51,301 nucleotides of DNA from Candidatus Yanofskyibacteriota bacterium (GTDB lineage Bacteria; Patescibacteriota; Minisyncoccia; JACQLN01), in NCBI GenBank assembly GCA_943359335.1, contig CALRHC010000005.1, positions 1 to 51,301 of the forward strand. Reading direction: 5' to 3'. Below are positions 19,653 to 45,576 of this stretch, in pieces. Made by a program: the position numbers and the translations under genes. The notes beneath the pieces are model-generated. The model did no database searches. It saw only the letters and a program-made list of their open reading frames with translations, and was not told the DNA's origin. Each line of letters starts with the position of its first letter. Position 1 is the stretch's first letter.

Positions 19653-19726
19653 TGGCTGCGGGACCTGGATTCGAACCAAGATACTCGCCTCCAGAGGGCG
19701 ATGTCCTACCATTAGACGATCCCGCA
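19653..19726 (-). tRNA. tRNA-Gln(CTG), CCA end encoded
   Basis: TGCGGGA/TCCCGCA acceptor, loop CTCTGGA, 3' GCCA. Confidence 0.92.
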
Positions 19727-19730
19727 ATAT

Positions 19731-19979
19731 TTATAAATTTTTCAATATACTTAACTTCTCTCTGGATCCTTTATAACTCTTTAAATATTTTTCTCTTTCT
19801 CTTGCGTTTATTCGTGTAGCAAAACTTTCGGTATAAATAATCTTAAAAGGTATTCGGCTTTTAGTTGATCTTACTTTGCCAGCGTTATGATATACCAATC
19901 TATTATTGACATCAGCAGTCATGCCAACATAGTAACCGCCATCTTTTAAACTCTTAAGAATATAAACAAAATACGTCAT
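19731..19979 (-). CDS. GIY-YIG family mini-endonuclease (UPF0213-like)
   Basis: YFVYILKSLKDGGYYVGMTADVNNRLVYHNAGKVRSTKSRIPFKIIYTESF; SD (AGGA) lies inside the upstream tRNA fragment. Confidence 0.92.
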   Translation of the reverse strand: MTYFVYILKSLKDGGYYVGMTADVNNRLVYHNAGKVRSTKSRIPFKIIYTESFATRINAREREKYLKSYKGSREKLSILKNL

Positions 19980-19980
19980 T

Positions 19981-20037
19981 TTGTCCTACCATTAGCCTGC
20001 CCGCGGACGGGCTTGTCCGGCCAGGGACGATCCCGCA
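19981..20037 (-). pseudogene. 5' fragment of tRNA-Gln split by a 31-nt GC-rich palindromic insertion
   Basis: TGCGGGATCGTC-[CCTGGCCGGACAAGCCCGTCCGCGGGCAGGC]-TAATGGTAGGACA versus intact TGCGGGATCGTCTAATGGTAGGACA. Confidence 0.88.
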
Positions 20038-20115
20038 ATAGTTTAGAAAATACCATAAAACCCAACTTATTAAAAGTGCTTTAATTTGAATGTTTTGCTA
20101 TCCTATTAGGCATAC

Positions 20116-21663
20116 ATGCAGTCAAAAGCAATCAAAACATTAGGTGTAATATTATTGCTCGCGGGAATAGCCTTGGCATTACAATTCTCTACCCCAAACA
20201 TCGCTGATCCTGATGCTTTTTACCATATGGCACATGCTAAGGTTTATGCCGAGCGTGGAATATTTTATAGCGAATTTCCTTGGGCGCAGTTTTCTATAAT
20301 CAAAGAATTAAAATCCGATATTTGGTACGGCTTTCATTTGTTTTTAATTCCATTCACCTATTTTAAAGATACCTTAGGCATAAAACTTGCGGGCGCGTTT
20401 ATTACTTTTTTAACTTTAGGCGGTTTTTATTTTGCGCTAAACAAATTAAAAATTAAGTGGCCAATTTTATGGACACTTGTTTTTGTGTTAGCAACACCCG
20501 ATGTTATATACCGCTTAACAATGACTCGGCCACATAATTTATCGCTTGCTTTAACAGCAGTTATATTTGCGTTGTTTTTGACTTCTAGTAAGCGTTGGCC
20601 GTTATTTGTTTTAGGATTTATTACTGCCTTTCTACATTCCGCTTTAAGCTGGTTACCTTTAGCCGTTGTTATTTTAACTAGCTTGGTTTTAAAACTCCGC
20701 CGCGAACCAGCCAAATTTAATTCGATTATTTATTTAGCTATAGGAATTATTAGTGGCTTACTGGCTCGACCAAATCCATTTGCAGGTTTAAAAATTGCGT
20801 ATATTCAAGTAGTGCAAATTATATTTGTTAAATGGCAGAATATTCCCCTAGCCTTTGGTCGCGAACTAAAAACTCCAAGTTTTGATTCTATTTTGGCGAA
20901 TATTTTGCCAGTTATTTTAATAGGAATTGCGGGAATTATTTTATACAAACTATCAGTTAAAAAATATCGCGCCAACGAAATTGCTAATTCCAAAAACATA
21001 TTTTTCTCGGCTCTAGTTGTTTCTGTCTTCTTTTTGTTTATAACCTTATCTGTAGCCCGCCGAAGTTACGACATCTTTACCGGTTTTACTTTAATAACCG
21101 CTTCGTCTGCCTTAACTATTTATTTAAACAAATTAACAAATATAAAACACAAAAACTTTGTTGTTTCTGGTTTAATAATAGTTATTGGCTTTGCTAGTTT
21201 AAATTCCGTGCCTTTGTTTAAAAAATATAATAAAGATGCTTGGGCCGCCGACGACATGAAAGCTTCGGCGCTCTGGTTAAAAGAAAATGCCAAAGCTGGT
21301 GAAATTGTTTTTAATACCAGCTGGGATCAATTTGGCAGTTTAATGTTTTGGAATAATCAAAACTACTACATAAATGGTATGGACCCTATTTTCCAATATG
21401 CTTTAAGCCTAGCACTGTACTGGAAAAATCATTTTATGTTAGCCGATGTGGGTTATACCAATACCTGCGGTTTGATTCGTTGTAAACAAGAAGAAATAGA
21501 AACAACGCCATCGGTTTTAATAAACGATTTTAAAGCTTCATATGTTGTACTTAAAAAAACCCGAAACCCAAAAACATATTTTTATTGGGTAAAAGATAAA
21601 ACCTTCCCTTTGGTTTTTGAAAATAGCACCGAAGCAGTTTTTAAGGTGACGCCGTTAAAATGA
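20116..21663 (+). CDS. GT-C/oligosaccharyltransferase-like membrane protein
   Basis: 515 aa, multi-TM, early luminal ADPDAFYHMAHAKVYAERG. Confidence 0.75.
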   Translation: MQSKAIKTLGVILLLAGIALALQFSTPNIADPDAFYHMAHAKVYAERGIFYSEFPWAQFSIIKELKSDIWYGFHLFLIPFTYFKDTLGIKLAGAFITFLTLGGFYFALNKLKIKWPILWTLVFVLATPDVIYRLTMTRPHNLSLALTAVIFALFLTSSKRWPLFVLGFITAFLHSALSWLPLAVVILTSLVLKLRREPAKFNSIIYLAIGIISGLLARPNPFAGLKIAYIQVVQIIFVKWQNIPLAFGRELKTPSFDSILANILPVILIGIAGIILYKLSVKKYRANEIANSKNIFFSALVVSVFFLFITLSVARRSYDIFTGFTLITASSALTIYLNKLTNIKHKNFVVSGLIIVIGFASLNSVPLFKKYNKDAWAADDMKASALWLKENAKAGEIVFNTSWDQFGSLMFWNNQNYYINGMDPIFQYALSLALYWKNHFMLADVGYTNTCGLIRCKQEEIETTPSVLINDFKASYVVLKKTRNPKTYFYWVKDKTFPLVFENSTEAVFKVTPLK

Positions 21664-26499: not shown

Positions 26500-26505
26500 A
26501 GACTG

Positions 26506-26578
26506 AGCCGACCCCGGGAATTGAACCCGGAACCTACGGTTTACGATACCGTCGCTCTACCAATTGAGCTAGGTCGGC
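26506..26578 (-). tRNA. tRNA-Thr(CGT)
   Basis: GCCGACC/GGTCGGC acceptor, loop ATCGTAA. Confidence 0.92.
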
Positions 26579-26596: not shown

Positions 26597-26641
26597 CCCG
26601 CCAAAGCTTTAGCGACGGCGGGCCAACTGAGCTACATCGGC
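26597..26641 (-). pseudogene. 5' tRNA fragment abutting a palindromic repeat
   Basis: GCCGATGTAGCTCAGTTGG followed by CCCGCCGTCGCTAAAGCTTTGGCGGG in place of the remaining tRNA. Confidence 0.82.
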
Positions 26642-45339: not shown

Positions 45340-45420
45340 GGAGGTGTGGCCGAGCGGGTTGAGTGCTATGTTATAGCGCTTAACGGGTTTCAAAAGAAAC
45401 CCTTGGAGCCCGAGGTCACA
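45340..45420 (+). pseudogene. tRNA-Ser-like 5' fragment with degenerate remainder
   Basis: GGAGGTGTGGCCGAGCGG identical to intact tRNA-Ser at 45455; no 3' acceptor strand. Confidence 0.78.
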
Positions 45421-45454: not shown

Positions 45455-45543
45455 GGAGGTGTGGCCGAGCGGCTTAAGGCAACGGTTTGCTAAACCGTCG
45501 GGGTCTAAAAAACCCCACAGAGGTTCGAATCCTCTCGCCTCCG
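45455..45543 (+). tRNA. tRNA-Ser(GCT)
   Basis: GGAGGTG/CGCCTCC acceptor, loop TTGCTAA, variable arm GGGGTctaaaaAACCCC. Confidence 0.92.
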
Positions 45544-45576
45544 CAGATTCTATATTAGTAAACTCAGAACTTTTTA

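Follow-up and report, generated by a model that had tools for sequence, protein, structure and literature searches.

A small GIY-YIG nuclease gene between a broken and a complete tRNA-Gln gene: a putative homing-type cassette of bacterial tRNA genes

SegB of phages T4 and T6 is described in PMC13096335, which cites Brok-Volchanskaya 2008, as a free-standing GIY-YIG homing endonuclease of tRNA gene regions. It cuts within tRNA genes and accompanies tRNAs in many phages; free-standing enzymes of the GIY-YIG type are noted there to cleave the donor allele inefficiently as a rule (PMC13096335). SegB drives recombination that amplifies tRNAs, and it is the nearest functional precedent for the bacterial cassette presented here, which it resembles in being a GIY-YIG, intron-less gene beside tRNA genes of many isotypes. 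SegB is longer and has a DNA-binding part. It is phage-encoded, whereas the bacterial cassette is chromosomal, encodes a protein of about 80 aa and occurs in many phyla; the account of SegB given there describes neither a hairpin-broken 5′ tRNA copy nor a rebuilt tRNA.

Within bacteria, the rRNA genes of CPR genomes contain non-intron GIY-YIG insertion sequences near the tops or bases of stem-loops; the authors of that work judged GIY-YIG to lie outside spread by homing, and they do not mention tRNA (PMC11270868). These insertions are like the cassette in that small non-intron GIY-YIG genes sit in structured RNA genes, but their target is rRNA and no gene copy is rebuilt. The minimal GIY-YIG fold of the cassette protein is shared by the UPF0213 proteins (BH0048, 1ZG2; EF2693, 1YWL) and by the nuclease domain of Slx1, a branched-DNA nuclease that works with the partner Slx4; we know of no link of either to tRNA genes. 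Small palindromes are linked to a nuclease gene in the REP/RAYT system, where the RAYTs are HUH (Y1) enzymes; the cassette differs in that the protein is a GIY-YIG one and not an HUH (Y1) transposase beside palindromes. Small palindromes also occur in loops of RNA genes as the double-hairpin elements of fungal mitochondria, to which, to our knowledge, no nuclease has been assigned. In the literature that we searched, which covered few subscription papers or preprints, no description of a bacterial tRNA cassette was found.

The window (the whole stretch of 51,301 nucleotides that was analysed) carries the unit on its minus strand, at 19653-20037. The first part is a broken copy of a tRNA-Gln gene. 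Its nucleotides 1-12 (TGCGGGATCGTC, 20037-20026) match the 5′ end of the intact tRNA exactly and are followed by a GC-rich D-loop insert of 30 nt (CCTGGCCGGACAAGCCCGTCCGCGGGCAGG, 20025-19996; 31 nt if the C at 19995, assignable to either side, is counted) that forms an imperfect hairpin. Nucleotides 12-25 then follow (CTAATGGTAGGACA, 19995-19982) as a 14-nt exact repeat of the intact tRNA. An AA separates this copy from the ATG of an 82-aa GIY-YIG ORF (19979-19731; Pfam PF01541, E 2.4e-14), and 4 nt past the stop codon lies a complete tRNA-Gln(CTG) with encoded CCA (19726-19653), called by ARAGORN and scoring 58.9 bits against Rfam RF00005. The order and spacing (tRNA-Gln 5′ fragment, 2 nt, GIY-YIG ORF, 4 nt, intact tRNA-Gln) are those claimed by a sequence-only reading of the same DNA. 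That reading also had the ORF bracketed by a direct repeat of the tRNA 5′ end; the 14-nt exact repeat bears this out, but the repeat is not clean, since the stretch that was elided as ".." in its 5′ fragment is the GC-rich D-loop insert. The AGGA that ends the broken copy lies at Shine-Dalgarno distance from the ATG and, judged by its position, plausibly serves the ORF in this role. The D-loop insert has no second match anywhere in the window. A group I intron around the ORF was considered and rejected: apart from tRNAs, nothing in the window attains an Rfam gathering score.

Integrative elements that use tRNA attachment sites are large, carry an integrase and usually restore the 3′ part of the tRNA. 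The cassette is like them in being inserted in a tRNA gene and leaving an intact copy, but it is about 300 bp long and encodes a GIY-YIG protein; the 385-bp unit contains no integrase, and the part of the tRNA that is duplicated is the 5′ end.

We compared the source genome (591,612 bases in 17 contigs) with four relatives of its family, so that filled and empty sites are contrasted between species, not strains. Orthologues of the gene at window 20116-21663, upstream of the locus, are present in all four relatives. In three of them (G001, G002 and G003) the same flank of this orthologue carries one uninterrupted tRNA-Gln(CTG); a profile search of 2.7 to 3.7 kb at these syntenic loci found no GIY-YIG gene, and no 5′ tRNA fragment was seen there. 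In G001 the tRNA is directly followed by the gene for the CCA-adding enzyme, and the window has the same arrangement except for a tag gene. The sequence preceding the broken copy (20038..20105, minus strand) aligns with that before the intact tRNA in the same three relatives, and hence the broken copy holds the ancestral position; this stretch is probably the promoter of the ancestral tRNA-Gln(CTG) gene, now preceding the broken copy. A related element at tRNA-Leu(CAA) is present in G000 and G003 (L003 and L022) and absent from G004, where tRNA-Leu(CAA) follows the same ParA gene and there is no nuclease. Thus, the empty sites whose existence the sequence-only reading had proposed as a check, lacking both nuclease gene and fragment, were found for the window's element, and an empty site was likewise found for its sister at tRNA-Leu. 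Separately, on contig 82 of G004 (L036) a short fragment, TTGCGGGATCA, directly precedes an intact tRNA-Gln(CTG) with no nuclease, and is possibly the remnant of a lost cassette.

The linkage of small GIY-YIG genes to tRNA genes recurs widely. With a profile built from 20 small GIY-YIG proteins, members were found in 65 of the 78 genomes of the class, with up to 13 per genome. Of the 132 class loci that were oriented for analysis, a tRNA on the same strand closely follows the ORF in 42, at a median distance of 5.5 nt from the stop codon; the tRNA density in the outer flanks would predict 1.4. A same-strand tRNA lies upstream in 16 loci, and an opposite-strand one was seen once. In a cross-phylum set of 105 loci (80 named relatives of the window's clade and 25 from the phylum), same-strand tRNAs lie downstream in 59 and upstream in 24 (some loci have both), again with one on the opposite strand; this fraction is not a census, because the set was selected by similarity to the window's clade. 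Hosts include Bacteroidota, Ignavibacteriota, Chlorobiota, Calditrichota, Nitrospirota, Planctomycetota, Elusimicrobiota, Omnitrophota and many CPR groups, and among them is a cultured strain, Maribacter caenipelagi CECT 8455 (Bacteroidota). Phage records yielded distant relatives only, all under 60% identity. The contact can be very close: at 14 loci nucleotides 8-10 of the tRNA double as the stop codon of the ORF. In the class survey the tRNA-Leu targets, six in all, are without exception CAA isoacceptors, and CTG makes up five of the six tRNA-Gln targets; damage to these may be better tolerated, as another tRNA may read their codons by wobble.

Broken copies recur as well. Of 100 loci with a downstream tRNA, 80 have a partial 5′ copy of that tRNA ahead of the ORF, compared with 8 of 100 when isotypes were mispaired. 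For tRNAs not beside a GIY-YIG gene the figures are 3/39 (far) and 7/39 (near), and some of these partial copies are relics of the same kind. The sequence-only reading had suggested a search for other GIY-YIG ORFs flanked by partial tRNA repeats; its outcome is favourable, partial tRNA duplications showing a strong association with other small GIY-YIG genes. Chance placement was rejected by the density, strand and mispaired controls.

In 59 of the 100 loci the partial 5′ copy is interrupted by an insert that usually forms a hairpin and falls for the most part within the D-loop region (nt 9-23), in some cases within the anticodon loop (34-37). GC content is high in the inserts (67% vs 41%), and 58 distinct ones fold far better than mononucleotide shuffles of themselves (mean z −3.05). 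Strong folding of the window's own insert was not supported as DNA (z 0.37, 61-nt fragment), and as RNA it folds weakly; the hairpin claim therefore rests on the whole insert set. Insert sequence and position track protein similarity (Mantel r 0.35, p 0.001), hairpin similarity being 0.48 in the most similar cross-family protein pairs vs 0.25. Between the window and L163, for example, the proteins are 65% identical and the inserts, at the same D-loop position, have a similarity of 0.80, whereas the tRNA bodies differ; the inserts of L058 and L246 are also related to that of the window. Copies of tRNA-Lys(TTT) at L140, L147 and L111 carry a double hairpin in the anticodon loop, right after TTTTT. 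At L164 and L194 (Bacteroidota) a tRNA, a terminator-like hairpin and a GIY-YIG gene form a unit repeated in tandem, and hairpins break one tRNA of each pair.

Two further broken copies lie in the window with no nuclease. On the minus strand, a hairpin-broken 5′ tRNA copy at 26597-26641 (GCCGATGTAGCTCAGTTGG plus a CCCGCC..GGCGGG hairpin) directly precedes an intact tRNA-Thr(CGT) (26505-26578) and is a relic or non-autonomous form. On the plus strand, a broken tRNA-Ser copy with a GGGTTTC-AAAA-GAAACCC hairpin (45340-45404) precedes an intact tRNA-Ser(GCT) (45455-45544).

At some loci the remainder of the old tRNA has been kept. In G002 (L013/L033) an old tRNA-Gln(TTG) is split into 5′ and 3′ parts, and the order is old 5′ part, inverted-repeat arm, nuclease, intact tRNA, other arm, old 3′ part, the last carrying three hairpins. 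Both ends of the old tRNA are also kept at L140, L018, L046, L076, L121 and L183. Since the old 3′ part lies downstream of the intact tRNA at L013, L140, L018 and L183, the cassette there consists of the nuclease gene plus a whole tRNA. The new tRNA-Ile at L018 differs from the old halves in its acceptor stem, so it was not simply copied from the resident gene. At L140 a long direct repeat of the old tRNA flanks the cassette. The proposal of the sequence-only reading, that a cassette entered the tRNA at about nucleotide 26 and restored it, thus suits the form in the window, which has no old 3′ part, but not these other loci, where nuclease and whole tRNA go together; the window form fits either that model or recombination within the 3′ half.

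The 82-aa protein is a bare GIY-YIG catalytic domain. Its domain match, its fold and its catalytic Tyr/Tyr/Arg/Glu (Y6, Y17, R27 and E63) place it in the GIY-YIG superfamily (PF01541), and Y6, Y17, R27, H31, E63 and K67 are invariant in 30 relatives. The predicted structure (pLDDT 97.3) is nearest to UPF0213 BH0048 and the Slx1 nuclease domain, with I-TevI less alike, and sequence search agrees with this placement. The protein has no separate DNA-binding region of the kind that accompanies the catalytic domain in SegB-like enzymes, and it falls below the cut-off of the NCBIfam group I intron endonuclease model. Of the homing-endonuclease fold named in the sequence-only reading, the GIY-YIG domain stands, but a DNA-binding domain is lacking and the nearest structures are UPF0213 and Slx1. 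A structure-specific nuclease would suit tRNA loops and hairpins.

Nuclease lineages keep to their targets. In a tree of 129 class-level proteins, whose shortness leaves many forks unresolved, the tRNA label clusters (19 changes vs about 42 shuffled), and tRNA isotype takes 22 changes vs 32.8. In the wider, cross-phylum set, 48 of 102 proteins have the same tRNA isotype as their nearest protein from another family (mean 7.3 and maximum 18 after shuffling); the sharing pairs include members of different phyla, but a few protein pairs are nearly copies of each other.

On balance, the unit is probably, though by no means surely, a homing-type GIY-YIG cassette, free-standing and intron-less, whose targets are tRNA genes, each left with one intact copy; cutting and mobility are its presumed activities. 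Consistent with free-standing homing, an intron-less nuclease gene sits in its target, no Rfam intron family is present, empty sites exist between species, and one lineage holds the same kind of target in distant hosts. The intron-less, tRNA-targeting homing unit of the sequence-only reading thus gains from empty sites and recurrence, but has to accommodate the D-loop insert, the whole-tRNA cassettes and the bare catalytic domain. We liken the cassette to free-standing GIY-YIG homing elements by its workings and not as a member, because it lacks their DNA-binding region and because its cutting and homing are presumed.

In the homing-type reading, the nuclease would break an empty tRNA gene near the D- or anticodon loop, and the break would be repaired from a filled allele, with the tRNA halves as homology. 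Repair would copy in the hairpin-bearing 5′ copy, the nuclease gene and the complete tRNA; as a whole tRNA is left, invasion of an essential gene would not be lethal. Recombination in the 3′ half of the new tRNA would give the window form with no old 3′ part, and recombination in the old 3′ half the form of L013, L140 and L183. The hairpin may protect the old copy from being cut again, may interrupt the repeat and so keep recombination from removing the element, or may be the structure recognised by an Slx1-like nuclease. Several points argue against homing, among them the missing DNA-binding region and the contrast of filled and empty sites between species instead of strains. Over the part that they share, the intact tRNA and the broken copy often do not differ, so a sequence-specific nuclease should also cut the intact one; no protective substitution was found by eye in the intact tRNAs of the Gln, Leu and Lys loci. 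The duplication may also not need a nuclease in cis, as similar nuclease-less relics lie in the window. Poor cutting of the donor allele, noted for free-standing GIY-YIG enzymes (PMC13096335), may by analogy apply here.

Inverted-repeat arms abut the start and stop of the ORF at L002, L007, L011 and L005 and at about half of the tRNA-less GIY-YIG loci. Recurring arm motifs include ATCCCGTTAG and CCCCCACAC, and an ORF bracketed in this way often directly adjoins the start codon of one of the housekeeping genes (ruvB, ileS and mraZ, by eye).

Such arms support the main alternative, itself rather doubtful, of a hairpin-guided, transposition-like element. Here an Slx1-like nuclease would recognise its cognate hairpin or inverted repeat, tRNA genes would be targeted for the likeness of their stem-loops to it, and the small hairpins would be non-autonomous derivatives (cf. 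REP/RAYT). Arms with a score of 9 or more abut start and stop in 55% of 76 tRNA-less loci, against 6% in a mispaired-flank control, and near-identical elements occupy three sites with different flanks (L002, L007 and L011). The insert type tracks the protein lineage, the fold is nearest to that of a branched-DNA nuclease, and nuclease-less relics exist in the window, all of which speaks for the alternative. However, tRNA-linked copies are mostly without terminal inverted repeats (7% at score 9 or more), and taken alone it leaves the complete second tRNA and the isotype-specific lineages unexplained. Terminal inverted repeats were rejected as a universal boundary for the tRNA-linked copies. It is conceivable, and we put it forward tentatively, that a bare Slx1-like GIY-YIG nuclease and its cognate DNA hairpin form a mobile element of many phyla that invades tRNA loops and regularly leaves a complete tRNA, and could thereby live as a parasite of the most conserved essential genes, many small hairpins of CPR genomes being its non-autonomous offspring.

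A neutral history is unlikely. By this account a tRNA was duplicated in tandem, the spare copy degenerated as palindromic repeats inserted into it, and a GIY-YIG gene that drives nothing landed between the two. The GIY-YIG-less relics in the window and the tandem units with one decayed tRNA at L164 and L194 would fit, but order, strand and spacing are fixed, nuclease lineages are isotype-specific, and insert sequence and position are conserved with the nuclease lineage. Least of all do we favour addiction at the RNA level, in which the protein would act on tRNA or its precursors and the adjacent intact tRNA would be a resistant copy: a nuclease regularly paired with a tRNA of the same isotype in one transcription direction might suggest it, but the fold and the nearest solved relatives are those of DNA nucleases or related UPF0213 proteins, and the intact copy, which in the shared part often matches the broken one exactly, would not be immune, making this very improbable.

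If the homing-type reading is true, a common small nuclease gene of CPR bacteria would gain a role as a selfish element of tRNA genes, one able to enter essential genes since it brings along or restores the gene that it hits. The broken and duplicated tRNA genes of CPR genomes would then be accounted for, and replacement tRNAs and palindromic repeats would have a source. Homing into tRNA genes would become testable on bacterial loci, one of them in the cultured Maribacter strain, and the theme of tRNA-linked GIY-YIG genes would be extended from phages to chromosomes.
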